A DNA stretch of 31,408 nucleotides from a virus: the IMG/VR virus record IMGVR_UViG_3300042448_000367, positions 1 to 31,408 of that record; one strand, 5' to 3'. The translations under genes were made by a program, and so were the position numbers. Below the pieces are notes generated by a model. The model ran no database searches. It had not been told where the DNA came from and was given only the letters and a program-made list of their open reading frames with translations. Each line of letters opens with the position of its first letter. The first letter of the stretch is position 1. Positions 1,850 through 25,800 of the stretch are shown here, piece by piece.

Positions 1850-1853
1850 GGAG
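1850..1853 (+). promoter_or_regulatory. Ribosome binding site that sets the reductase start at 1862
   Basis: GGAG at 1850-1853 lies 8 bases before ATG 1862. The in-frame GTG at 1853 overlaps this site and has no ribosome site of its own at suitable distance, so ATG 1862 is preferred. Confidence 0.6.
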
Positions 1854-1861
1854 TGAATATA

Positions 1862-3799
1862 ATGACAGTTTCTTTGCCAACGGCATACCAGCAAGTAATC
1901 CACAAGACAAGATATGCAAGGTGGAGAGAAGAAGATAATCGTAGAGAAAACTGGGAAGAAACTGTATCACGTTATAGTGATTACATCTTTGATGCATTGA
2001 GCAGACACAGTGATTTTACTGTTGATTCAAAAACAATTAAAGAAATTAAGTCTGCAATTCTTGAAACAAAAGTAATGCCATCCATGAGAGCATTTATGAC
2101 AGCAGGTCCAGCTCTCGAAAGAGACAACACCTGCATCTATAACTGTGCTTACATGCCAGTAGATAGTTTAAGATCATTCGATGAAGCAATGTATATTCTG
2201 ATGTGTGGAACTGGTGTGGGATACTCCGTAGAATCACGCTACGTTAACCAACTTCCAGAAGTTAGCGAACACTTTGAGCCAACAGGTTCTGTAATTGTTG
2301 TAGAGGACTCAAAAGCAGGATGGGCAAGAGCATTTAAAGAACTTCTTGCACTTTTATGGCAAGGTCAGATTCCAGAATGGGATATGTCTAATGTTAGACC
2401 AGCAGGTGCTCGCCTAAAAACATTTGGTGGTCGTGCATCTGGTCCAGACCCACTAGATCGTTTATTTAAGTTTTCTATTGCACTTTTAAAGAATGCAAAG
2501 GGAAGAAAACTAACACCCCTAGAAGCACATGACTTAATGTGTAAGGTTGCAGAGGTTGTAGTCGTAGGCGGTGTACGCCGTTCAGCAATGATTTCACTAT
2601 CAGACCTTGAAGATCGTAATATGGCAGCAGCAAAATCAGGTTCTTGGTGGGAATACTCTGGTCAAAGAGCCCTTGCAAATAATTCTGCGGTTTACAATAC
2701 AAGACCAACTATGGAAGTTTTTATGGACGAATGGAAGTCTTTGTACGATTCAAAATCTGGAGAAAGAGGCATCTTTAGTCGTGAGGCAGCACAAAAAGTT
2801 GCAGCAAAAAATGGTAGAAGAGACTCAACCGTAGACTTTGGAACTAACCCTTGTTCAGAAATCATTCTTCGTCCTTACCAGTTCTGTAACCTAACCGAAG
2901 TTATTGTTAGAGATACAGATACCCTAGAAGACCTTAAGGCTAAGGTAGAACTTGCAACAATTCTTGGTACAGTTCAGTCTACTTTTACAAGATTCAAATA
3001 TCTAAGAAAAATCTGGCAGAAGAACTCAGAGGAAGAAAGATTACTTGGTGTCTCATTAACTGGTCAGCTATCCCATCGTGTTCTGAATGGCTCTGAGGGC
3101 GTAGAAAAGCTATCTCTATGGTTAGACGAACTTCGTGAAGTATCTGTTGCGGTAAATAAAAAGTGGGCACAAAAAATTGGTATTAATCAGGCTGCAGCTA
3201 TTACTTGTGTTAAGCCTTCTGGAACAGTTTCTCAGTTGGTAAATGCATCTTCAGGAATGCACCCTTGGCACTCTCAATATTATGCTCGCACTATTCGTGG
3301 AGACATGAAAGACCCAATTACTTCATTCCTTGTAGATATGGGTGTAAAGCACGAGCCAGATGTAATGAAGCCAAACGATACTATGGTGTTTACATTTCCT
3401 ATTGCAGCACCAGAAGGTGCAAAACTTCGTGAAGATTTAACTGCTGTTCAGCATTTAGATATTTGGCTTACATACCAAAGACATTGGGCGGAGCACAAAC
3501 CATCTATTACTGTTTCAGTTAAAGAAGATGAATGGATGGCAGTAGGTGCTTGGGTATATGACCATATTGATGAAATGTCAGGAGTATCATTCTTGCCTTA
3601 TTCAGAGCACACATATCAGCAAGCTCCATATCAAGAAATTACAAAGGCAGAGTATGAAAAACTATTGTCTGAAACACCAGAAGACCTTGATTGGAAATGG
3701 CTTGAAATATATGAAACATTTGACGGTACTACATCTGTACAAGATTTAGCTTGTGTTGCAGGTGCTTGCGATATCACCGATATCAGTAAAGCGGTATAA
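1862..3799 (+). CDS. nrdJ: Adenosylcobalamin-dependent (class II) ribonucleoside-triphosphate reductase
   Basis: The enzyme converts ribonucleotides to deoxyribonucleotides using adenosylcobalamin, with no oxygen requirement and no small subunit. The 645-residue chain matches the monomeric RTPR type known from Lactobacillus leichmannii. Seen here: NCAY with Cys95; TNPCSE with Asn329, thiyl-radical Cys331 and Glu333; FCNLTEV with Cys342, the active-site disulphide partner of Cys95; FGGRASGPDPL; VGGVRRSA; CVKPSGTVSQL; and a C-terminal CVAGAC pair (Cys631/Cys636) for re-reduction. All expected catalytic residues are present. It is about 90 residues shorter than the Lactobacillus enzyme; where it is trimmed needs an alignment. 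It has its own promoter and sits between fibre-like genes and the head module. It would supply dNTPs for phage replication if the host provides B12. Confidence 0.95.
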   Translation: MTVSLPTAYQQVIHKTRYARWREEDNRRENWEETVSRYSDYIFDALSRHSDFTVDSKTIKEIKSAILETKVMPSMRAFMTAGPALERDNTCIYNCAYMPVDSLRSFDEAMYILMCGTGVGYSVESRYVNQLPEVSEHFEPTGSVIVVEDSKAGWARAFKELLALLWQGQIPEWDMSNVRPAGARLKTFGGRASGPDPLDRLFKFSIALLKNAKGRKLTPLEAHDLMCKVAEVVVVGGVRRSAMISLSDLEDRNMAAAKSGSWWEYSGQRALANNSAVYNTRPTMEVFMDEWKSLYDSKSGERGIFSREAAQKVAAKNGRRDSTVDFGTNPCSEIILRPYQFCNLTEVIVRDTDTLEDLKAKVELATILGTVQSTFTRFKYLRKIWQKNSEEERLLGVSLTGQLSHRVLNGSEGVEKLSLWLDELREVSVAVNKKWAQKIGINQAAAITCVKPSGTVSQLVNASSGMHPWHSQYYARTIRGDMKDPITSFLVDMGVKHEPDVMKPNDTMVFTFPIAAPEGAKLREDLTAVQHLDIWLTYQRHWAEHKPSITVSVKEDEWMAVGAWVYDHIDEMSGVSFLPYSEHTYQQAPYQEITKAEYEKLLSETPEDLDWKWLEIYETFDGTTSVQDLACVAGACDITDISKAV

Positions 3800-3814: not shown

Positions 3815-6800
3815 ATGTCCTATTCTAACTTAATTCAATTAGCTTCTCCAGCAGTAGTATATGCTTTAGATGATTCAAATGTTGGAAATAGTCAACCTGT
3901 GGCTCCAGATAGATTTTTATACGCAAACCCTAATGGATCAGGTTTTTATAATGGAATATACCAAAACGTAAGTAAGGTTTCTTTTCCTATTGTTTATGGT
4001 GGTCAGCAATCTATTAAGGTTAATGAGAATGGATACATTAGAATACCCTCCTTTAGAAAAATGTCACTTTCTGATGTTGGAAATAAATCATCTTTAGAGT
4101 TTTGGGTAAAAATAAGTAACTCAAGTTCTTCAGAGCAAGTTATAATGACAAAGAAGGACGTGGATGCTGACGGAGCAGTAGATTATGCTACCTGCATTTA
4201 TGTTAAAAATGATTACATTACTTTTAGGCTTGGAATAGAAAGCGATTATCGTGAAGTTTCTGTACCGCTAGATTCTGTAAATAAGCCACTACACATAGTT
4301 GCTTCCTATACCCCTTCTGACATATCTCTTACTGTTAACGGTGCAAAAAATACTACAACTATAACTAATCCTCAAACATTATTCCCTACGTTTGATCTAG
4401 ACGATGAATACTTTTACTTTCAAAAACCATCTGGAATATCCAACATACAGTTTGACTGCATTGCTCTGTATTCTTATGAGCTTGCAAGAGAAAGACTAGT
4501 TAGACATTTTGTTTATGGATGTGGATATAATCCACCAGCTCAGTTTATTAATTCTAATGGTGGTGCACTATATAACTTTTCTATGGATGGTCAAACTACA
4601 ATTAAAAAGTATGATTTTGGTCCAGGCAATCCTTGGGCGGTCAGCGAAACAGATAATGTTAGCCTAGAAAGAGGAAACCTTATCCTTAAAAGTTTTCAGG
4701 AACCAACAATTATTCAAAGAGGAACTTTAGAAGAAAGAAGCTTAGATCTTCTATTTACTACAACTGGATTTGATTTTAATAAAACATCATATTTAGAGTT
4801 AAAAAACTCTGACAGCATTATTTCACATAATCTTGGGGGTTGGGTTTTTAAGTTTAATGGTTCTGGGGTAACTCTTACAACTACAAAGCAGACATTGTTT
4901 AAGTCATTTTCGGACACCCTACAAGACAGCATTGAGGCATATTTAATAAAAGTTGACTCTGTAGATAAACTAGTATTTAAAATAAATGACGTTCTTGTTA
5001 CACAAAATGCCCCAACCATATCTGAAGATTTTTATGTTGGTTACTATACTTCTGGAAGCAATGAATATTTTATTTATGGCACAGCTTCAAGCAATTCAAA
5101 CATTCTTGTTTCTACAGATAAAATAAAGCCATTAAGTTTTGGTACACAAAAAATAAGAATTGGATCAGATAACACTTGGGTATCTGATGATGTGGTACCA
5201 TCAGAACAGTTTGAGTTTACTGGAAAGTTAAAAGAAATAAGGTCTATTTCCGATGGTCTTATTACTTCTAGTTTGCTAGGAAATGCAGTATCCAGTTTAA
5301 AGAATCAATACACCGCTTCGCCAAACTCTAATCAAAAAAGATTTGTTATATCTTCCTCTGGATCCGCAGTTGTTGATATTCCACAGCAAGCACTTTGTCC
5401 TATATCAAGCAATACAACTGGTGCCAACAGAATAGACATTGGACACCCACTTGGTTCAACTGCTATGACCTTAAGTATTTCAAATATTCCATATTCAGAG
5501 GGAGTTGCAGGAACAGCAAGGCTTGCAAGCACATCAGTTACAGAAAGAACTATTACGTCTGGAGACTGGTTAAATAATCAGTTGGTGCAGTCAAACAATC
5601 CTGCAACAAACCCAGTAGATATAATTAGTTTTGCCATATCTTTATCCACAGATGATTTAATTAGAAAACCAGCAAAGCTAAGTTACCTAAGACTTTTTTC
5701 TTATCAGCTTACAAGCGATGATAATGGAACAACAAACTATGTTCTTTGCAATGCCTCTCCTGGAGGAAACCCAGCAAAAATATATTTAACTGGTGCGTCA
5801 AAAACTGTCAATATTCCAGATATTTTAGAGACCCCTATTCTTTACAATGGTTTCTATAGTGGTCTTAGTTTAAAAAATAACTATACAGAGATAAATCATG
5901 ATAGGCAATCTCTTGAGGGTGGTGGCATAAAAGTAATATCCTTTATGCTTTATTTTGATTCTGGTCAGTCATCTGGAACCTATAAGATATTGGACTTTGA
6001 TTCCCTTAACCCAAATAATGGATTTAGCGTTGGCAGCACTGGTAATATAACAAAGGGTTCAAACACCTCCGTTTACTTAAATGGCAACATTGCTTCACAA
6101 GCGTCATCAATTCTTTTAGATCAGTGGCAACAAGTTACAGTTGTTTATACAGAAGAGCTAAACAAGCCACTTATTACTATTGGAAATGCATCTGCATCAA
6201 CTGGTGCCAGAATAGACCAGTTAATTTTGTTTGCAAAGCCATATGACTCTAATTCAGGCAAGGATTTTGTAAAAAACTTATATAACTTAACTGCAGGTGG
6301 TGTATCTCATAGAGTACAATCAACCTCTGTCGTTGGTCTATCTGATGAGTATAGAATACCAGGAATTATTGGAACTCAGCAAGAGCCAGGGTATGGAAAG
6401 GTTTGGTTATCAGATTTTACCGCAGAAGATGTTAGTGGGTTTGTTGAGACAGCTGGAGATTTTTCTGTACTATCCTTAATTGATGGTAGCTCAGAAATAA
6501 CAATACCTGTAACTGGATACTATACTGTAAGTCAGTCTCAAACATTTGAAACTACCACAACAACAAACTATGGAGGTTCTGGAAGTAACACCATTCAGGT
6601 TATTGGTGCTCCAGAGTCATATTTTCCAGGAAGAACAAAACTTTTAAGAAAAATAACAACTGCTGGAACATCACCGTTCACTGACATTACTGTTACAAAC
6701 GCTGTAAGTGATGGAGATTATACAAATACAACAACTCTTACTTTAAGCTCAAATGTAATAGCAAACTTTTCAGATTTCTTAGTTTTTAGCAACGAGTATT

Positions 6801-7171
6801 TTTCTTTTAATCAGGAACAGCAAAGAAGGCTTTATCTGTTAAATAAAAAGATATTTGTTGGTCAAACTTTTGTAGTTAACTCTGGAACAAAAAGATATAT
6901 CTACACGGTTGATCAGATATTTAATGTTGATAATCCAATACAGCAAAGCCCTGGATACTTTAAATTAAAAAAAGAAACTTTAGATCATACAAAAAATGGA
7001 AAGGTTTATGTTGGTCAGTACTATAATTCTACAAAGAGACTTCAGTGGGTACAGCCAACATCAGGAGATACTGGTTATTTTGTCAATCTTGCATCTACTA
7101 ATCTTTTTAGAGAAAAAATTAAATCAAAAACTGCACCAAGTCAAGATTCTATCTTTACAACAGAAGAGTAG
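3815..7171 (+). CDS. Large structural protein with LamG/concanavalin-A-like domains
   Basis: This 1118-residue protein is beta-rich, with no signal peptide or membrane segment. Residues about 60-230 form a LamG-type jelly roll: SLEFWVKI, later PLHIVASYTP and ISLTVNG, the alternation expected of concanavalin-A-like lectins. A second such region lies near residues 690-830 (IKVISFMLYFDSG, then WQQVTVVYTEE), and a third may lie near 560-650. Phages use these domains as carbohydrate-binding fibres, capsid decorations or tail-tip modules. It sits between the reductase and the portal module and is unusually large for a gene just upstream of a portal. I infer a virion surface protein that binds glycans; head or tail location cannot be decided. 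The start has a -10 box and no strong ribosome site. AGA dominates its Arg codons. Confidence 0.65.
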   Translation: MSYSNLIQLASPAVVYALDDSNVGNSQPVAPDRFLYANPNGSGFYNGIYQNVSKVSFPIVYGGQQSIKVNENGYIRIPSFRKMSLSDVGNKSSLEFWVKISNSSSSEQVIMTKKDVDADGAVDYATCIYVKNDYITFRLGIESDYREVSVPLDSVNKPLHIVASYTPSDISLTVNGAKNTTTITNPQTLFPTFDLDDEYFYFQKPSGISNIQFDCIALYSYELARERLVRHFVYGCGYNPPAQFINSNGGALYNFSMDGQTTIKKYDFGPGNPWAVSETDNVSLERGNLILKSFQEPTIIQRGTLEERSLDLLFTTTGFDFNKTSYLELKNSDSIISHNLGGWVFKFNGSGVTLTTTKQTLFKSFSDTLQDSIEAYLIKVDSVDKLVFKINDVLVTQNAPTISEDFYVGYYTSGSNEYFIYGTASSNSNILVSTDKIKPLSFGTQKIRIGSDNTWVSDDVVPSEQFEFTGKLKEIRSISDGLITSSLLGNAVSSLKNQYTASPNSNQKRFVISSSGSAVVDIPQQALCPISSNTTGANRIDIGHPLGSTAMTLSISNIPYSEGVAGTARLASTSVTERTITSGDWLNNQLVQSNNPATNPVDIISFAISLSTDDLIRKPAKLSYLRLFSYQLTSDDNGTTNYVLCNASPGGNPAKIYLTGASKTVNIPDILETPILYNGFYSGLSLKNNYTEINHDRQSLEGGGIKVISFMLYFDSGQSSGTYKILDFDSLNPNNGFSVGSTGNITKGSNTSVYLNGNIASQASSILLDQWQQVTVVYTEELNKPLITIGNASASTGARIDQLILFAKPYDSNSGKDFVKNLYNLTAGGVSHRVQSTSVVGLSDEYRIPGIIGTQQEPGYGKVWLSDFTAEDVSGFVETAGDFSVLSLIDGSSEITIPVTGYYTVSQSQTFETTTTTNYGGSGSNTIQVIGAPESYFPGRTKLLRKITTAGTSPFTDITVTNAVSDGDYTNTTTLTLSSNVIANFSDFLVFSNEYFSFNQEQQRRLYLLNKKIFVGQTFVVNSGTKRYIYTVDQIFNVDNPIQQSPGYFKLKKETLDHTKNGKVYVGQYYNSTKRLQWVQPTSGDTGYFVNLASTNLFREKIKSKTAPSQDSIFTTEE

Positions 7172-9172: not shown

Positions 9173-10945
9173 ATGATTAATTTACAAAAGGCTTCCCTTT
9201 CTATGAATGGTAACAGCGTCAACTTGACGATGCCAATTTCAAAAATTGATGAAGAAAAGCGTATTGTATCTGGCTTTGCCACCCTTGATAACATTGACAA
9301 ACAAGGTGATAGAATACTTCCAGAAGCCTCAGAAAAAGCATTTGCAAACTTTCGTGGCAATGTAAGACTTATGCATCAACCTATTCCAGCAGGAAAGGTT
9401 GTTTCTTTTAGATCAGACACATTTTTCGACCCAGAGACAAAGAAGCAATATACGGGAGTATTTGTGGATACCTATGTTTCTAAGGGTGCTCAAGACATCT
9501 GGGAGATGGTTCTTGATGGTACACTCACTGGTTTTTCAATCGGCGGTGCAATTAAAGATACAGACACAGAATTAGATGAAGAATCAAATACAACTGTTCG
9601 TGTTATTAAGGAATATGATTTAGTAGAGTTATCCTTAGTTGATTCACCTGCAAATCAGTTTGCCAATATTTTCTCTATTCAGAAAACTATTGATGGTGAA
9701 ATTGCTGAGGGAATGTTTTCTAAGTCAAATATTAAGAATGTATTTTGGTGTGAAGAGGAAGAAATGGCTTATCTTTCAAGAGAAGAAAAGTATTCTTGCT
9801 CATCCTGCAGTTCTGACCTACCATCTATTGGATGGATTGACGAAATAACAAAGTCAGATATTGAAAAAGCAATGACAGAAATTATTGATACACATAAGGC
9901 AGTTAATCCTGGAACCGTTACAAGTGATGATGTTCCAAAGAAGTATCCAAAGCAAAATCCAAGATTTTCAGATATCCAGACTGAAAAAGATCCTAAAAAG
10001 AAAAAGAAATATATTAAAAAAGCAGGAGAATATTCTTCTGGAGATTTTGTTCAGTGGGGCTCTTCAGGTGGCACAGCAAGAGGTAAAGTAACAAGAGTAG
10101 TAACTAATGGTAAAATTAAAGTACCAAATTCTAGTGTAACAATTACAGGTACACCAGAAGACCCAGCGGTGGTTATCAGAGTTTACGAAAAAGACGGAGA
10201 CTCTTGGAAGCCATCTAAAACAGTTGTAGGACATAGAATGAGTACACTTAGATCTTGGACAGTTAAAGTCCTTAAATCCCTTGGTGTACAATCAGAAGTT
10301 TCTCTACCTAACACAGTAGTGAATGAGGCAAGTGACGCAGAGTTGGTTGCCACACAAATAAATGAAGGAGGTGTTGATATGACTGAAAATAATGAAGTTG
10401 TAGAAGAAGTTGTAGAAGTTGAAGAAGAAGTTGTAGTTGATGAAATTGTTGAAGCTGAAGAAGCTCCAGTAGTAGAAGAAATTGCAAAGTCTGATGAAGT
10501 TGAAGTAACAGAAGCAACAGAAGAGACAGTCGAAACATCAGTAGATACAGAGGGATCTGCAGATGACGCTTCCACCGATAATGGTGAGGCGACTGACCTT
10601 GAAAAGACTCTTAGTGAAATCAAAAATTTTGTTGGCGAAGCTCTTACAAAGAGTAGCGAAACAAATGCAGCTGCAGTTAATGGTGTTGTAAACACTGTTG
10701 CAGAAGTAACAAAAGCTTTAACCGATAAGCTTGTAGAAAATGATTCTCGTTTAGAAGAGATCAACAAAGGTTTGGCGGATATCGTAAATGCAGTACAAAC
10801 AATTAATGGAAGATTGGAATCTGTAGAAAATGATACCGCTGTAAAGAAATCTGGGGAACTTGAGAGTTCCGCAGAAACAACTATACAGAAGTCAGATTCT
10901 GTATGGGGGGGACGCTTCCTCAGTTCCTCGCAATACTTAAATTAG
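9173..10945 (+). CDS. Prohead protease fused to Cys-cluster, Tudor-like and scaffold regions
   Basis: The 590-residue product begins with an HK97-type (S78/U35) capsid maturation protease, residues 20-170: SGFATLDNIDKQGD, the His68 motif RLMHQP, the catalytic Ser122 motif TGFSIGG and LSLVDSPANQFANI. Residues 190-215 hold Cys193, Cys209 and Cys212. Residues 288-360 (GDFVQWGSSGG, ARGKVTRV, EDPAVVIRVY, VGHRMSTL) resemble the HVA1/DUF2945 Tudor-like family. From residue 403 follows a very acidic Glu/Val stretch, then a coiled-coil-like region to the end, typical of scaffolding proteins. The protease would cleave scaffold and capsid N-termini during maturation. A strong internal start at residue 403 could make the scaffold separately. 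The protease call is firm; middle domains are by pattern only. Confidence 0.88.
   Translation: MINLQKASLSMNGNSVNLTMPISKIDEEKRIVSGFATLDNIDKQGDRILPEASEKAFANFRGNVRLMHQPIPAGKVVSFRSDTFFDPETKKQYTGVFVDTYVSKGAQDIWEMVLDGTLTGFSIGGAIKDTDTELDEESNTTVRVIKEYDLVELSLVDSPANQFANIFSIQKTIDGEIAEGMFSKSNIKNVFWCEEEEMAYLSREEKYSCSSCSSDLPSIGWIDEITKSDIEKAMTEIIDTHKAVNPGTVTSDDVPKKYPKQNPRFSDIQTEKDPKKKKKYIKKAGEYSSGDFVQWGSSGGTARGKVTRVVTNGKIKVPNSSVTITGTPEDPAVVIRVYEKDGDSWKPSKTVVGHRMSTLRSWTVKVLKSLGVQSEVSLPNTVVNEASDAELVATQINEGGVDMTENNEVVEEVVEVEEEVVVDEIVEAEEAPVVEEIAKSDEVEVTEATEETVETSVDTEGSADDASTDNGEATDLEKTLSEIKNFVGEALTKSSETNAAAVNGVVNTVAEVTKALTDKLVENDSRLEEINKGLADIVNAVQTINGRLESVENDTAVKKSGELESSAETTIQKSDSVWGGRFLSSSQYLN
10365..10373 (+). 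promoter_or_regulatory. Internal consensus ribosome binding site for the nested scaffold
   Basis: AAGGAGGTG is complementary over all nine bases to a standard anti-Shine-Dalgarno sequence and lies 5 bases before an in-frame ATG at 10379. It is as strong as any ribosome site in the window, yet sits deep inside the protease gene. Confidence 0.7.
10379..10945 (+). CDS. Putative nested scaffolding protein (internal in-frame start)
   Basis: The ATG at 10379 is codon 403 of the protease gene and shares its frame and stop, giving 188 residues. The product opens with an extremely acidic, Val/Glu-rich stretch, followed by helix-rich sequence (TDLEKTLSEIKNFVGEAL, then DSRLEEINKGLADIVNAV) and a short Gly/Ser/Tyr tail. 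Small acidic helical proteins encoded just before the major capsid gene are usually scaffolds that guide shell assembly. Lambda uses the same arrangement: Nu3 is made from an internal in-frame start in the protease gene C. The ribosome site directly upstream makes separate synthesis likely. Whether the full-length protease is also made, and in what ratio, is unknown. Confidence 0.65.
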   Translation: MTENNEVVEEVVEVEEEVVVDEIVEAEEAPVVEEIAKSDEVEVTEATEETVETSVDTEGSADDASTDNGEATDLEKTLSEIKNFVGEALTKSSETNAAAVNGVVNTVAEVTKALTDKLVENDSRLEEINKGLADIVNAVQTINGRLESVENDTAVKKSGELESSAETTIQKSDSVWGGRFLSSSQYLN

Positions 10946-16202: not shown

Positions 16203-16535
16203 ATGGCTACCAAAATTTATGAATCAATCGAAATGGAACTACAGGATGGAACAATCATTACTGTTAAACCATTAAACTTAAAGAACCTACGTCAGGTTAT
16301 GACGAAGTGGAGAGAAGTAGAAACAAAAACCTCAGAAGATGAGTTTTTAGATCTTTTACTAGACTGCACATCAATTGCTATGAAGCAATTCGCACCAGAG
16401 ATTTCTGATAAGGAAAAGCTAGAAGAGGCTTTAGATCTTCAAACTATGTACAAAATATTGGAGGTTGCTGCAGATATCAAGCTTAACGACCCAAACCTGC
16501 TAATGGCAGCTCAGGAACTAGCTGGAACGAGCTAG
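16203..16535 (+). CDS. Tail assembly chaperone, short (unshifted) form
   Basis: The 110-residue protein is the G-type chaperone found before tape measure genes. It begins with a beta strand region (MELQDGTIITVKPLNLKNL) and continues with helices (QVMTKWREVE, DEFLDLLLDCTSIAMKQF, LQTMYKILEVAADIKL). It would coat the tape measure protein and recruit tube subunits during tail assembly and is absent from the finished virion. ATG 16203 follows AGGAG by 4 bases. The slip site at 16490-16496 lies near its 3' end, and its stop lies in the stem of the stimulatory hairpin. Confidence 0.85.
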   Translation: MATKIYESIEMELQDGTIITVKPLNLKNLRQVMTKWREVETKTSEDEFLDLLLDCTSIAMKQFAPEISDKEKLEEALDLQTMYKILEVAADIKLNDPNLLMAAQELAGTS

Positions 16536-16885
16536 ACCTAGCTGCCCTAGAGTCGGAAGTATTTCTCTTGGGTCATTGGAAAGACTATGAAGAACTTGAA
16601 ACAAGTCTTTCTATGCAAGAATTGATAGCTACACTAGGTGCGATGCATGAAAAAGAGAACAGGCAGAATAAATTTTTAGCTGCTATTCAAGGTATTGATT
16701 TGTCTCCTGACAATTCTAGTTCCTCAACAAACGGTGACGCACCAACAAGCCTTGCAGAAATTAATGCTAGAGCAGACAAACGTCTTGGCGGAAGTGAAAG
16801 TTCTTCATTTGCACTGGAGTTTGGAATTAGTCAAGATGAAGGTCTTGGCTACGAGGTTCTAGGTTTGGCGGATATAAATGGCTAA
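16203..16885 (+). CDS. Tail assembly chaperone, long form made by -1 frameshift
   Basis: The second frame lies one base back from the first and is open from 16487 to the stop at 16883-16885, with no good start of its own. Shifting at C CCA AAC joins 98 residues of the short form to 129 more (read from 16496), about 227 residues in all. The added part starts with a Trp-Asn-Glu-Leu-containing link, has GHWKDYEELETSLSMQELIATLGAMHEKENRQNKF, and ends in a Ser/Asn-rich linker and a short acidic tail. This Gly-T type extension, with a helical ELxxL...NRQxKF segment, is typical of GT chaperones that bind both tape measure and tube proteins. The second frame ends 8 bases inside the tape measure gene. 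Confidence 0.83.
16490..16546 (+). other. Programmed -1 ribosomal frameshift signal
   Basis: The slippery heptamer CCCAAAC (16490-16496) is in the right phase (C CCA AAC) for simultaneous P- and A-site slippage. After an 8-base spacer follows a hairpin: GGCAGCT 16505-16511 pairs with AGCTGCC 16540-16546, AGG 16513-16515 with CCT 16537-16539, and CTAGCT 16518-16523 with AGCTAG 16530-16535. Loop GGAACG. The 0-frame stop is inside the stem. Confidence 0.85.
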
Positions 16886-19800
16886 TATTAATGCCCAGTT
16901 TAATTATTCTGCAAACTTTGGTCCAGTAATAGGACAGATGCAGAAACTTTCTGCTGAAGCTAACATATTAAATAATACTTTACAAAACCTTGATAAGCAA
17001 GCCGTAGGATTAAAAGGAAGCCTAGCATCTTCATTTGCTTCCGATCTTGGAAAAATTGGTGGCTGGAATGCCAAGATGGTTGAGATGACAGACTCAGTTG
17101 ATAACTTTGGTCAGTCTCTTTTAAAACAAAAACTAACACTTAAAGAATATGCAAGAGAAGCTATTGGTGCTTTTACTACATCCAGCAATGCTCATAAACT
17201 AGCCGTTCGTGAAGTTGCTAGAGGAATGTCTCAGCTAGTAACCCTTGGCAAGGGCATGGACGGCAAGCAAATGGGTATGATGATTACCCCAGCAACAATT
17301 AACATGAAAGACTTTAATACTCAGCTTGCAGTAAGTCGTAAGCAATGGGCTATATTTAATAATCTTGTTCAAGACGGAACAACCCATTTAATTAACTTTG
17401 GTAAGAATACTCAGTGGGCAGGTCGTCAGATTACCGTTGGTCTTACAGTACCTTTAACCATTTATGGAAATATGGTATCTAAGATATTCCGTGAGGTTGA
17501 TGCTGAGCTAACAAGGTTTCAAAAAGTTTATGGTGCAGACCTATCTGGTACATCTGAAAAAACAAGCAATCAGATGGTTAATGATGTTAGAAATATTGCT
17601 GTTGAATTTTCAAAGTCTTTTGGAATTGCAGCAAAAGAAACAGCATCACTTGCAGCAGACCTGGCTGCAACTGGTCTTGAAGGACAAAAGCTTCTTGGGG
17701 CATTAAGAGAAACAACTCGTCTTGCTGTACTTGGTGATGTTTCAAACCAAGATGCAATGAAAACAACCTTGTCTCTTCAAAATGCTTTTAAGATGAGTAC
17801 AGATGAACTTGCTCAATCTGTTAACTTCTTAAACGCAGTAGAAAACCAAACCTCTTTATCTTTAGAGGATTTAACCACAGCAATTCCTAAAGCTGGTCCA
17901 GTTATTAAAGCCCTTGGTGGAGATGTAAAAGACCTATCACTTTTGATGGTAGCCCTAAAAGAAGGTGGTATTTCTGCAGGTGAAGGTGCAAACGCAATTA
18001 AGTCTGGTATGGCTTCTTTAATTAACCCAACAAAGCAAGCATCATTAACTGCAAAACAATACGGAATTGATATAGAGTCAATTGTTCAGGCAAATCGTGG
18101 ACAGTTGCTTCCAACAATTATGGAATTTCAAAGACAATTGCAACTGCTTGATGATTTTGGAAAAGCACAGCTAATTGAGCAAATATTTGGTAAGTATCAG
18201 TTTGCAAGAATGTCTGCACTGTTTGACAACTTAAATGCAAATGCTTCTCAGACAAATGCGGTACTTGGCTTGATGGGTAAATCAAATAGAGAACTTGCAG
18301 CAACTGCATATAGTGAAATGAACACCTTGATGAACTCAGCATCAAAAAGATTTGAAAGAGCTGTTGAAGGAATCAAGGCACAGTTCCTTACTATTGGTCA
18401 ATCTATAACTTCTTCCATTACCCCGATTCTTGAAGGTCTTACTGGAAAAATTGGAAAAGCTATTGAGTTTTTTCAAAACCTTCCAAAGCCAGTTAAATCT
18501 TTTATTAAGGTAGCAACTGGGTTAACTGCTGTTGCTGGTCCAATTATTATGATGGTTGGTATTTTCTCCAACTTCATGGGTTATGTTTCAAAGGGTGCAA
18601 TGGGAATATTTAACCTTGGAAGAAGAATGGCTGGTATCCCAGTTGAAAAGTTTGAAATGCTTACAGACACACAGCTTCTGGCACAAAAAGCAACACATGA
18701 ACTTGCAAACGCTTTTGATTCAGAACGCTCCAGTGTTGAGAAATTAAACATTGCTCTTGGTCTATACAAAAGAAACCTTGCTGATGCAATTAGCTTAAAC
18801 CCTGCTTTTATTAATAGTCAAGTAGCAGCAATTCAAAATACCGCACCTGCCTCAACCGTACCTACAACAACCCAGTTACAAAAGGGCGGTTCTGCTTGGG
18901 TTCCAGGTCAGGGTGATGGGGACAAGGTTCCTGCAATGCTTGAACCAGGAGAGTATGTTGTAAATAAAAAGGCAGCATCACAAAACTCTGCATTACTAGA
19001 CGACATTAACTTTAGACAAGCACCACGTTTTCAAATGGGTGGAAGAATGCCTGGATATGCAGATCAATCTTTTATTGGTCCAAAGCCACAAATATCTTAC
19101 AATGTGCAGGGAACTTACATGCCAGGTGGATACACACCGTTTTCAGATTATCCTTTTGCATCTATCGAGTCTGCAGAAGCATTTCAAGCAACCAATCCAC
19201 GCAAATGGGGTGGTCGTTCTTCAAGAATTACAAGAGATATTAATGATCCACAACAAAAGGCTTATGCCGATTGGATAGAAGGACATAACACAAACCAGTT
19301 TAGAACTGGAACTGGTGTTATGAAAAGAATGGATATGGCAGGTCATCGTGAGCAAATGCTTAACAGTATGGGTCCAATATCTCAGAACATTCCTTTATAC
19401 AGAGGAACAGTTCTTAGAGAAAAGGGTGCTAATGAATTTTCTGGTGTAGGGGCAAGAGAGTTGCTCATGTACATCAAGCATGGAATGTTTGACAAGGCTA
19501 TGGGAAAGAAAATCCAATGGTCAGACATGCAGTCATTTTCTTCAAATCCAAACATTGCAAGTTACAATAAGTTTATTGAGTCTTGGACAAACCCATCAAA
19601 CACCAACTCAAAGAAGGCAGCAGATAGACAACTAGAGTCTATGTCAATGCTTCCTGTAGTATTTAGACTTGCAAATGCTAAGGGACAAAATGGATTTAAC
19701 ATATCTTCAAAAGCTATGGTTCAAGAGGTTATGGGTAAGCCTGTTAACGAAAAAGAATGGGTATTAAATAACCCATCAGGAACTATTTCTGGTATCCGCC

Positions 19801-22800
19801 AAGATATAGGAACAAAGAATTACATTGTTGATCTTATGCAAAATGGTGGTAGGGTACAAAGTCATGCTGATGAATCATTTAGAGCACCATTCCAAAAAAC
19901 AGACAAAGAATATGAAACCGTTTACAAGTGGATTGGTGGAGAACTTGACTACTTTAGAAGAAGAAAGAATGTAAAGGGTCGTTGGACTGACTCTGAAAAG
20001 TTTGATGCAGAAAGATATCAGCAACTTCTTAGCATAATGCGTTCTGTTCCAGAGGGAACAAGGATGATGAGAGGCTCTCTTCTTAATCCAGGAATGTCTG
20101 GAGAAATGTCTAAAGAGTCTCAACTTGCAATGCTTACAGCTATTCAAACTGGTGACTATGGAAGTCTTTATGGAATGGATATATCCTTTAGTGACTTTGC
20201 ATCATTTGCATCAGATTTTATGGGACCTGCATACGGTCCTAGAGGAATGAAGGGTGGAGTAAGTAGATTTTCTGCTGCTGCATACAGAAAATTATATCGA
20301 GGAGTACATAACAGAGACACTGAAAAGGGCAGATTCTTTGATGACATAGAAAGAAGTAGGGCTACTGGGAAAGAATCAAAGTATGGTTCCTCCCCAGTTA
20401 TTTATGATTTTACAGCAGGACCAAATACTCAAGGTAGAGATATTTCGATGGGAGATCCATCAACAGGTGCACCATATCCAAAGTATCGTGATAGTTGGGT
20501 AAAGGAAGTACCAGATGAAATTAATGAAATCCTTACATATGGGGCACAGGGAACAATTACTGGAGTTTCATCCGATTTACAATCACGTCAACCAATTATT
20601 CATATGCAGGGTAAACAAATGGGTGGAAGAATTAAGAGTGCTGCAGGTGGTATGGCATTTGCACATATTGTTCCTCCTGCAAAAACACCATCTGGTCTTG
20701 GTATTCAGACCCTTCCGTTTGGATTAACAATTCCTTCAGCAATGAATAGACTACTAGCTAGTTCCTCTGTTGAAAAAAATTCTCTTTTAAAGTCTTTTGC
20801 AAGTCCTATTGCAGAAGATAAAATGTCTTCATTGCTTGGAATATATGGAGAAAAGGATCCACAAGGAACTTCCGAGTCTATTAGAGGATCTCTTATTTCA
20901 AAGTTGGTAAACACTAAGGGTCCACTTAGTGATGAAAAGATTTATCAAACATCAATGAGAATACCTATGCTTAAAAACAAATACAACGAATACTTAAAGT
21001 CTGGAAAACTCTATGATGTTAGATCTAGAATTAGTGGTGAAAAACTTAGTTCTGCAGGTTGGGCTCTTGTTGAAGAAAAAGATGGAGTTAAGACTTTTTC
21101 TAAGAATGGCAAAAAAGTTTACTATGGAAAACGTAAAGGTCAGTCCTGGAATACTGTGTGGGGTGAAGATGGAAAATCTTTATCTACAGATACACAAACA
21201 AGAAGTATTGGAAAAAATACTCCATTTGATGTTGGTCAAAAATTAAGCTGGTTAGAAAAAGACGTTCTTGGGTATCAGTCAGGTGGTCGTGTAAATGGTT
21301 ATGCATCTGAAACAACTTCTTGGGCAAAGAAAGCAGCAGCACCTAAAGCATACGCAGGTGTTTTACAAGGAATACCAAGTTGGGCTACAAGAGATGCTGA
21401 GTATCAGGCAATCGTAGAAGCATTAAGAGCAGCAGGTATTCCTGAGTCAGATAGACTTGCGTCTTATTATATTCAAGATGTATTGGCACACATTAACCCA
21501 TCCACAACAAATGCTAATGGTGTATATGAAAAGGTATGGGCTGCAGCTAACTTGATGAAAGACTCCCAAGTTTACAACGTATTCCTTGAGACTCTTAACA
21601 GTAGAAAAGATATTGGTGGGCTACTAAATCCTTCTACCGTTTCAAGAGTCGCTGCTGCATCTGGTATGTCAACATCTGTAGTTCAAGCAGAACTAACAAA
21701 GATGGCGGATGGTGTTCATCCAAATACTGCTAATGGTGCAAGGGTAATGATGACTCTTGCACGAATGTTCCCATCAAGAACTTCTCCAGGAATGCCTATT
21801 GCTGTTGCAGCAGGTATGGGTGCAAGACTACAAGGTGATTTCTACAATACCCTTGGACAAAGAGCACTGCCATCTAACCTTCCAAACATAACCGTAAGGT
21901 CCTATGATCCAAAGAATGCTGGAGCACCAACATCTGCTGGGCAAGGCTCTAAGGTATCTTCTAGTGGCATAATAATGCCTTCTGGAGCAATAAGACCATC
22001 TATGGTAATGCCAAACATTCAAAGCTTAAGATCAAATGCAGGTGGTACAGGCTCAAAGGCAACAGTAAAGGTTGATGCAATGGGCAATGTTCTTTCAAAT
22101 AGCATTGACGATATGGTTGTAAATACTGTAACTGGTGAAACTATTGCAGTGTCAAGTAGAGAGCTTCTTGCAATTGGTCCAAATGGTGGTATAGCAGGAG
22201 TTACATCTCCAGGAGATGAAGCAAGAGGAAATATAGTTCATCCAGTTGGAACAGCCTTAATGCGTGGTAAAAAGTATCAAAACCAGAGACTACAAAATTT
22301 TGAAGCTAGAACTGGCAGGTTTGCAGCCTACAATGAATCTCAGAGAAACAAGATGGTAAGCACTCAAGACGGAATGACTGAGCCAGTATACGACCAACCA
22401 ATTGCTCGTGGCGGAATGGATCAGTTTGGTGGAAGAATGATGATGATGGTTGGTGCGGTAGATCAAATGAGATTTGCAATGAACCAGTTCACCTCTGAAA
22501 CAAGTAATGGAACATCCAAGTGGGTTGCATCAATGAATCTTGCACTTACAGCAACCCAGATGCTAGGTCAAGAAACTGGTCAAAGGTTAATGGAAAGAGG
22601 ATCGCAACTGAGCCAGGGCTCTGGGGGTCCTTTATCAAGAGGTATGGGGATGGCAATGTCTGGACTTGGAAAGGCAGCAAACTTCCTTGGAAACCCAATT
22701 ATGCAGATTGGTTTACAGGTTGCAATAATGGGTGTAAACAAAGCAATCGAGCAATATCAAAAACAAATGGCAAAAGCAAGAGAAGCAGGAAACGGTGCCT

Positions 22801-25800
22801 TTAAAGAACCAACCGAAGCAGCAAAGTTACTTGGAATTGAGCTAAAGTCTTTAACTGCAGATACGGAAAGATATGCAAAGTTTGCAGAGACTGCATTTGG
22901 CTCACAGGGTCGTGGTGCATATGATAAAGCATTTGCTGAAGCAATAAAAACAGACTATGCAGACTTCTTAACTATACTTTCTGAAATGCAAAATAAGCAA
23001 GAGCAGATGAATCAGCTTGTAAATGTTTATGGAAACCTAGTTCAAAGAGGAATGGATCCAAAGGTTGCTTTAGAATTAACTGCAGAAATAGCCAGGCAAG
23101 GTCAAGCAATGTCAGCATTTAATGAAATACAAAGTAGCTTTAGTTTGAAGGATACTGTTGGCGATGTAATGAAGATGCAAACAGATGCTCTTGAAAGTCA
23201 AATCGATTTGTTAAATCAAAGAAACGAAGCAGCAAGTGGAAATTCTGATGGAGCTCAAGCATTAAAGAAAGATGCCCTTGCAGATTTTCTTGGACTTTCA
23301 GACTCTGGAATAGAGGGTCTTTTAAGAAAAAATATTAGCGGTGAAGGCTTTGCAGGAATGTTTGCAAAGGTTCTTATTAGTGAAAAGTCAAAAGAACAAG
23401 TTGCTGCTCAAATAGGTGCAACATTAAAGGCATCTTTTGCAATTGCAGCACAAGACCCTATTGCTTCAAACGAAGCCGTAGATGCTATTGTTGCAAACTT
23501 TAAAAATGCAGATACTGAAAAAATCAATACAGAGATTGGAAAAATTGCAGAAGAGGTTGGTTATGGTGATTTAAGTAGTATTGGTTTGTTTATAGATACC
23601 GATTCGTTTACTGCACTTGGCACAGAAAGCCAAACACTATTTTTAAATGCCTTAAAGTCTGGTCTTGCTCCAGAGCTGGATAAAATGCTTGCAGATGGAG
23701 AACTAAGCAGTGAAGAAGAATCAGCATTAAAGAAGAAGGTTCTGGAAGCACAGGCACTCATGAAGATAGATGTTGAAGTTGATTTACAACTTGATCAAAC
23801 AACAAAACAATTACAGGCTGTTCAAGAAGAAATAACTAAGGTATTTGATATCTCATTGAGAGCAAAAGATGCAGAAATAGAAGCAGAAAATAAGCGTCAT
23901 GATAATGCTTTAAAGAACTTGGATAAAGAAGCACAAAGAATAAATGATAAGAAAGATTTGTTGCAAAAGAATACAGAGTATTATCTAAAAGAACTTGAAA
24001 GAGAAAAGCAAGCAGAAGATTATTATGCAAATCAAAGACAAACATCTTTACAGGGTCTAAGTGCAATTTCTCAAGGAGATGTGTTTGGATTCATAGGTGC
24101 TCAAATGAAAGCAGCATCAGACTCCGATCAGTTTGGTCGTGACAGGTCACTAGCTGCAATTCAAGAAACTGCAGATAAAGAGCAAGAAAAACTTGACAAT
24201 GCTTTAAAGGCTATTGATCTTAGAAGACAAGCAGAAGATGCAAGACACCAAGCCGAACTTGATAACATAAATAAAGAGATTGAAGAGCTTAACAAAAAGA
24301 AGGCTGCAACAACTGGAGACCTTCAAGAAGCAATAAAACTACTTGAAGAGGCAAAAGCTCTACAGCCTTCATCAGATCCAACTGATCAAAAAGTTTACAA
24401 TGAAAAAATTGCAAGAGCATCCCAGCTTGCTGGTTCAGCAATAGATCAAGCTAAGGCAGCAGCAGGATTTGTGGATAAGACTGGTCTTCCAGAAGATTTG
24501 CAAAAAGAAATGGATACTGCTCAACAGAAAACAGGAGAAGCTTTAAACAATTTCTACAGAGACACAGATACCGCAATGCAATATATTGCAAATGGTGGTG
24601 AAGGTGGATGGGAACTAGTGCTTGGTGGGATGTCTGATGCAACAAAGAAAATATTTGACGGTGTTGCAGAATCATTGAACATTGATGCACAGTCTCAAGA
24701 GTTTATTGAAGCAGCTAGATTTATGGGAATGGCTATTAATTCTGGAACAACTGTAACTCCAGGAGGAAATAGATTAGATGTAGATTCAAGTAATCCATTA
24801 CTTAGAGCAAGTGGTGGACCAGTTTCTGGTCCAGGTGGTCCAAAGGATGATTCAATACCTGCAAGACTTTCAAATGGAGAATATGTTATACAGGCAAGTG
24901 CCGTTAAGAAGTTTGGCACAGACACATTTGATCAATTAAATAATGGAGAGCCAATTAGCTACTTTGCAGAGGGTGGCTTTGTAATGCCTACTAGAAGTGG
25001 TGAAAATAGAGGAAACTTTGGAAGAAAGGGTCCTTTGTGGAGCCTTGGATACCACACAGGTCTTGATTTTGCTGGAGTAGAAGGAACTGACATTCTTTCT
25101 GTTGGAGGCGGTATTGTTGAATCTGTAAATGCTCATGGTGGAGCATATGGAAATCACATTGTAATTAGACACAGAAAAGATTTAATATCTCTATATGCTC
25201 ATCTAAGCAAGGTATTGGTTGGCACAGGAACTCAAGTTTCCGCAGGTCAACATATTGGAGAGATGGGTAGCACTGGAAACTCAACTGGACCGCACCTACA
25301 CCTTGAAATGGGACCAGGAATATATAGAAATGCAGGAAATCCTTTGTCTTATCTTTCTGGATCTGGACTAGTTGGTGGTCAAGAAATTGCAATGCAATTA
25401 GCACAAACCGTTCAAAAAAATAATCAGAATCAAACTAAGGCTTACGCTCCAGTTGTTTCAAGTCTTCAGGGAATGTTTGGTCTTGGTGCTGTTTCTTCTT
25501 CTCCACAAGCAATTGCAGCTGCCATAGATTATGGAAAAAATAACTATGCAGCAGGTGGTGCTGTGTTTGGTCCAGGATCTGCTACTTCAGATTCCATCCC
25601 TGCAATGCTTTCAAATGGAGAGTACGTTGTAAATGCAGCATCTGTTAAGAAATATGGAGTTGGAACAATGAACTCTATTAATGCTGGAAAGTTTGCAGGT
25701 GGAGGTTTTGTTGGTGGCACTGCTCCATCTGCACCGAAATACAATGTTCCTTCTGCTGGTGGCGGAATGGATGTTCAGCCTATTGCTCAGATGGCTCGTG

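Follow-up and report, generated by a model that had tools for sequence, protein, structure and literature searches.

The phage effectors known to be injected come mostly from heads or from phages with contractile tails. In phages and conjugative elements, polyvalent proteins place ADP-ribosyltransferases (ARTs), kinases, and other effectors in large virion-associated proteins predicted to be injected with the DNA, in an account that makes no mention of tape measure proteins (TMPs) (PMC5512222). The TMP-derived effectors of contractile injection systems carry variable functional domains, and TMP ejection, membrane insertion, and the refolding of a cargo that has taken the shape of the tube have been discussed for them (PMC13277306, PMC11126660). 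A survey of nicotinamide adenine dinucleotide (NAD) and ADP-ribose enzymes found them in 60% of myoviruses versus 16% of siphoviruses and leaves TMPs unmentioned (PMC9503650). Here we analyze a 31,408-nucleotide viral sequence (IMG/VR record IMGVR_UViG_3300042448_000367, positions 1 to 31,408; guanine-plus-cytosine content 37.5%; hereafter, the window) whose TMP contains two tandem ART modules. By sequence comparison, both are members of a polymorphic cargo array, which lies beyond the scope of the original prediction, a reading of the sequence without database searches that had proposed two ART-like domains inside a TMP. We propose, with a probability of about 0.62, that this protein is both a tail ruler and an array of effector-enzyme cassettes that would be delivered to the host, the ARTs modifying it early.

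By domain content, gene position, and length, the 3021-residue open reading frame is a siphophage TMP, as had been proposed. Besides its PhageMin_Tail and Peptidase_M23 domains, it has many tape-measure matches among the PHROGs, including phrog_10030 (tail length tape measure protein, E = 1.2e-121). Its gene is the longest in the window and lies downstream of the portal, prohead protease, capsid, and major-tail genes, after the tail-assembly-chaperone genes and before the minor tail genes.

Module 1 has the predicted fold of an R-S-E class ART (C3/VIP2/Alt-like). Its motifs, R842, SFSS at 886-889, and E958-x-E960, are invariant among the IMG/VR relatives from which our alignments were drawn (seven rows for module 1; nine for module 2 together with a third paralogue, ART3). 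In the AlphaFold2 model (mean predicted local distance difference test score [pLDDT] 65, core blocks ~80-89), DSSP places R842 on strand 80-87, SFSS on strand 125-128, and E960 on strand 200-203, with E958 just ahead of that strand. R, S, and E thus fall on successive ART-type strands of the predicted fold, which supports the original prediction. A Foldseek search of the PDB returned 59 matches at E ≤ 0.001, and the best 50 are all R-S-E ARTs of the C3 (C3bot), C2-I, VIP2, Vis, CDTa, and Certhrax kinds (best E = 7.5e-6, probability 0.99-1.00). In BFVD, a viral fold library, module 1 matched VIP2-type and Alt/ModB-type phage ARTs and ARTs annotated in portal and head-morphogenesis proteins, with no TMP annotation among the 50 matches listed. 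Sequence-based HMMER searches of Pfam, PHROGs, and PDB gave no convincing match for either ART module. With its E-x-E, module 1 is predicted to be an arginine-type transferase.

Module 2 (R1065, S1109, I1215-N-E1217) is homologous to module 1 and retains R, S, and E, and its place in the R-S-E class is assigned purely by that homology. The ART1 profile aligned to the ART2/3 profile in hhalign (97.1%, E = 5.4e-11). An unsupervised MAFFT alignment of ART1, ART2, and ART3 left R, S-F, E, and the G-x-I-x-G of the post-E strand as invariant columns, although the three paralogous modules are only ~24-37% identical. A hidden Markov model of ART1 alone, run on about 90 TMPs, recovered the other ART modules and nothing else. 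By these three approaches, the shared R/S/E pattern is more than chance. The residues on which the original prediction had built (R842, S886, S889, E958, E960, R1065, S1109, and E1217) all proved to be at the positions it gave, and the R-to-S spacing is indeed 44 in both domains; the distance from E to the first G of GTI[ST]G, given as nine, is eight in both, or nine counted inclusively. Its span of 19230-20613 located both ARTs but cut into both modules; measured from linker to linker, the span is 19038-20621. A joint alignment of module 2 with the third cargo module, Z, made for folding, misaligned the glutamate motif and was left unused.

Both ART modules are under purifying selection, judged from the ratio of nonsynonymous to synonymous substitution rates (dN/dS), and they are intact in independent contigs. 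The ratio is 0.11-0.30 for module 1 and 0.08-0.24 for module 2; for the N-terminal core of the TMP it is 0.06-0.13. The window's ART region recurs at 100% identity in three other contigs. An assembly or frame artefact was ruled out by this identity across several independent contigs and by the intact relatives.

The two modules lie in a slot that closely follows the conserved motif "VPAMLEPGEYVVN" (residue ~684). The alignment of relatives shows variation all the way from the conserved N-terminal part to a block, again conserved, that starts with ETTSWAKKAAAPKAYAGVLQG. Short Gly-rich linkers of the GGR[MIV]x(GY/SH)A type delimit modules of about 200-350 amino acids (aa). Of 87 TMPs, 25 have the slot motif, [IV][PK]A[ML]L[ESK][PN]GE[FYS][VI][VIP], in their first 1000 residues, mostly at residue ~670-690, and the 300 residues downstream of it in these 25 form nine groups that share no sequence similarity at E 1e-5. 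In each of the 16 ART-bearing loci checked, the ART is within the TMP frame, and 15 have the N-terminal core together with the slot motif; L021, which is cut at its 5' end, has the slot motif and an ART in the TMP frame.

In relatives, the slot holds three to six modules, among them a third ART, a HIGH-type nucleotidyltransferase, kinase-like modules, and several of unassigned type (the letters K, X, Y, Z, and V are working names). The order is ART1-ART2-Z in the window, ART1-K-ART2-Z in L004, K-ART2-Z, without ART1, in L011, ART1-X-ART2-ART3-nucleotidyltransferase-Z in L007, ART1-X-K-Y-nucleotidyltransferase-Z in L021, and ART1-Y-V in L006. The nucleotidyltransferase module matched phage cytidyltransferases (phrog_3041, E = 2e-24) and has cyanophage homologues. 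Module Y is found in more than 25 of the 87 TMPs, at positions varying from residue ~749 to ~3090. Its AlphaFold2 model is confident (pLDDT 84), and all 50 PDB entries listed for it are kinases, but the TM-scores are low (0.20-0.35), and we therefore use "kinase-like" as a provisional label. The alignment of module Y keeps lysine 55, glutamate 66, and a D-L-x-x-x-N ... D-x-G stretch without exception, as would be expected of a kinase active site; sequence searches with the kinase-like modules gave no match. Module Z has homologues in five TMPs of the window's clade and in the distant TMP of L051, and its most distant pairs share 24-30% aa identity; family searches with it gave no convincing match. 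Pfam scans of the middle regions of 18 other TMPs revealed no credible known domain. Separately, a distant TMP (L049, 7772-10666), which ends at its contig end, holds at least three further ART-like modules and module X, which is of unassigned type.

Synonymous divergence (dS) drops at the cargo. Between L007 and L012 it falls from 0.58 in the core to 0.10-0.12 in ART1/ART2, and between the window and L004 from 0.80 to 0.31-0.37. This drop points to the exchange of modules among relatives by recombination. Across six complete members, the cargo ranges from 748 to 1441 aa (standard deviation [SD] 251), whereas the rest of the protein spans 2064-2316 aa (SD 96). The TMP of Streptomyces phage Kenrey, of 2148 aa, has the N-terminal domain and an M23-like region without the cargo array, and its length matches the cargo-free part of window-type TMPs. 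These lengths fit what one would expect if tail length were set without the cargo.

The N-terminal core is ~30% identical to the TMPs of Stanwilliamsviridae and other actinophages, the match to Kenrey covering 95% of the query; among isolated phages, the full TMP was compared for Kenrey, and for the others the match is to the N-terminal part. At least 546 relatives of this core are in IMG/VR. Against isolated phages, tblastn with the ART, third-ART, and kinase-like (K) modules gave no match, and two scans of GTDB genomes returned no host or prophage copy. Of 13 relatives searched, 5 have genes for WhiB, an actinobacterial marker; among them are L002 and L005, which carry ART modules identical to those of the window. 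The WhiB genes point to actinobacterial hosts.

Table. Positions of the tape measure protein, its domains and cargo modules in the window, and of two further module types in related loci (nucleotide positions unless residues are given)
Feature	Position	Strand	Basis or remark
Tape measure protein gene, 3021 aa	16878..25943	+	Pfam and PHROG matches
N-terminal TMP core, residues 1-683	16878..18926	+	homologous to Streptomyces (Stanwilliamsviridae) and Rhodococcus phage TMPs
PhageMin_Tail domain	TMP residues 241-438		E 2.9e-29
Conserved VPAMLEPGEYVVNK motif directly before cargo slot	18927..18968	+	motif class in 25/87 TMPs
Whole cargo slot	19038..21308	+	linkers at both ends
First linker, GGRMPGYADQ	19038..19067	+	
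ART module 1, residues 761-989	19158..19844	+	AlphaFold2 model, PDB and viral fold searches, conservation in 7 relatives, dN/dS
Linker GGRVQSHADES	19845..19877	+	between ART modules 1 and 2
ART module 2, residues 1001-1248	19878..20621	+	homology to module 1, motif columns, dN/dS
Linker GGRIKSAAGG	20622..20651	+	between ART module 2 and Z
Third cargo module, Z	20652..21281	+	fast-evolving family
Last linker, GGRVNGYAS	21282..21308	+	conserved core resumes at ETTSWAKKAAAPKAYAGVLQG
Peptidase_M23 domain of TMP, residues 2725-2811	25050..25310	+	E 5.4e-26
HIGH-motif nucleotidyltransferase module in TMP	L007 5647-6234; L021 4316-4903		FGRMNPPHAGH ... SASALR
Kinase-like module Y	L069 11280-12149		homologous stretches in > 25 other loci

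Other features of the window stand beside this array. Just upstream of the TMP gene, two overlapping frames at 16203-16885 contain a slippery heptamer, CCCAAAC (16490), whose phase is right for a programmed -1 frameshift, and they are probably the tail assembly chaperone pair, with a candidate frameshift. The M23 domain is flanked by GEYV motifs (24800-25700; residues ~2650-2690 and 2907-2918), as if inserted there too. A ribonucleotide reductase gene (1853-3799; phrog_367, E = 3e-188) lies immediately 5' of the structural genes, and a 1118-aa protein with a Laminin_G_3/concanavalin-like domain is encoded at 3815-7171, between the reductase and portal genes. The prohead serine protease (Peptidase_S78, 9173-10945) also has a Hva1_TUDOR domain at residues 290-336.

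Our preferred reading, a tail ruler that carries effector cassettes, builds on what was computed directly, namely the identity of the TMP, the fold of module 1, the homology and R-S-E residues of module 2, purifying selection, and variable module content. The cargo slot, placed between the N-terminal TMP domain and the ruler and M23 part, would carry effector modules on Gly-rich linkers. The array would be packed in the tail along with the TMP and ejected ahead of, or together with, the DNA, the C-terminal M23 domain helping it to pass the wall. The cargo would then refold at or inside the membrane. Early in infection, the ARTs would modify proteins of the host with its own NAD+, like head-packaged T4 Alt, and other modules would act on host targets with nucleotides. 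Like the original prediction, we infer delivery with the tail ruler, which is now more plausible because the same slot holds a swappable array of other enzymes. A more general proposal, that the TMPs of a large group of uncultured actinobacteriophages are polymorphic effector carriers in which the slot after GEYVVN accepts and exchanges cassettes (ARTs, kinase-like domains, nucleotidyltransferases, and unassigned types), the non-contractile tail injects variable enzymes before the DNA, and tail-length control is independent, seems to us evenly balanced between true and false.

Several points weigh against the delivery of active enzymes. Activity, packaging, translocation, and injection into the host are all steps that we infer. 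The tail tube of a siphophage may not admit folded 25-kDa domains, which would then have to be unfolded or cleaved for packaging, and no signs of either were seen for the cargo. The general view is that TMPs stop in the envelope, which makes entry into the cytoplasm, the site of NAD+, conjectural. The model of module 1 is moderate, with TM-scores to ARTs of about 0.4-0.5. Finally, at the position of the class motif E/Q-x-E, module 2 has I-x-E and ART3 likewise has L-x-E. ART modules with I/L-x-E may have other targets or be NAD hydrolases, and module 2 may thus act on another target or as a NAD glycohydrolase. The missing E-x-E, together with the very fast evolution of some slot modules (Z), would also suit modules that are nonenzymatic, degenerate ART folds serving as structural fillers or as binding domains that adjust the tail or how it engages the cell. 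We consider this unlikely, given that R, S, and E have stayed invariant in three such diverged paralogues, that dN/dS is 0.08-0.30, and that slot neighbors keep the catalytic motifs of other enzyme classes.

Two further alternatives accept enzymatic activity and place it elsewhere. Some phage TMPs are cleaved during assembly, as is lambda gpH; the short Gly-rich linkers could be cleavage sites, and cargo length is far more variable than the rest, as if it lay outside the ruler. The enzymes might then act on proteins of the host or the virion while particles are assembled or late in infection, and be cleaved off before the virion is complete, never to be delivered. This, too, is improbable: no protease site or processing signal was identified, the array stays in frame in all intact relatives, and enzymes that act late would have no need to be fused to a TMP of which each virion has only a few copies. 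The other alternative holds that the ARTs target not the bacterial host but eukaryotic grazers that swallow infected cells or virions, as the Trojan-horse hypothesis has it for the freshwater phages, 24 of them, in which VIP2-type ARTs are reported (PMC6802176). The fold of module 1 does resemble VIP2/C3/C2-I, and several relatives may be aquatic. However, the modules are fused to a virion tail ruler and come without a secretion signal or binding component, the slot also holds nucleotidyltransferase and kinase-like domains in a protein that has an M23 peptidase, and some of the viral fold matches are phage enzymes whose target is bacterial RNA polymerase. We therefore regard a role against grazers as highly improbable.

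If the tail ruler does deliver its cargo, siphophages would gain an effector delivery route of their own, ruler and cargo would be separated within one protein, and the TMP-derived effectors of contractile injection systems would have a natural counterpart. Uncharacterised effector domains could also be collected from metagenomic phages by a sequence landmark, the GEYVVN slot with the GGRxxGYA/SHA linkers.

It is useful to contrast this protein with the systems it most resembles. Virion-borne effector fusions are known; the tail ruler as a carrier with an exchangeable slot appears to be new, as our literature search found, in the library covered, no phage TMP reported to contain ART, kinase, or nucleotidyltransferase domains or to be a polymorphic toxin. 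Judged by its domains, the window TMP is a polyvalent protein, with several conflict-type enzyme domains in one virion-associated polypeptide, because it holds ARTs and Z, and its relatives hold nucleotidyltransferase and kinase-like modules. The polyvalent proteins described by Iyer et al. 2017 (PMC5512222) are likewise large, virion-associated, multidomain proteins with ARTs and kinases, but they are MuF, portal, primase, or virion RNA polymerase fusions, whereas in the window the modules sit in the tail ruler of a siphophage, in a slot bounded by linkers. T4 Alt and the ARTs of portal, MuF, and head-morphogenesis proteins, which were matched in the fold search, are also virion-carried R-S-E ARTs; they are head-packaged or head-fused and usually have one domain, whereas the window ARTs are paired in a TMP. 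Muralytic TMPs (the mycobacteriophage TM4 motif, M23 and lysozyme domains) also hold enzyme domains inside a TMP, as the window TMP does with its M23 domain. They act on peptidoglycan for entry, whereas the swappable NAD- and nucleotide-using enzymes of window-type slots would form another class of cargo. The TMP-derived effectors of contractile injection systems are recognized by a contractile cluster with a sheath and a DUF4157 partner, which the window does not show; no sheath gene was found among the window genes scanned, in which portal, prohead protease, capsid, major tail, and minor tail genes were found. Even so, Tme (PMC11126660) and Sle1 (PMC13277306) share with the window TMP a TMP-like carrier and exchangeable domains, and, as predicted for our protein, they are loaded in a tail tube and ejected. 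Tme and Sle1 belong to bacterial contractile particles and carry C-terminal domains (endonuclease, membrane-acting). The window TMP, in contrast, is viral, comes from an apparently non-contractile phage, and has an internal array of several modules that includes ARTs.

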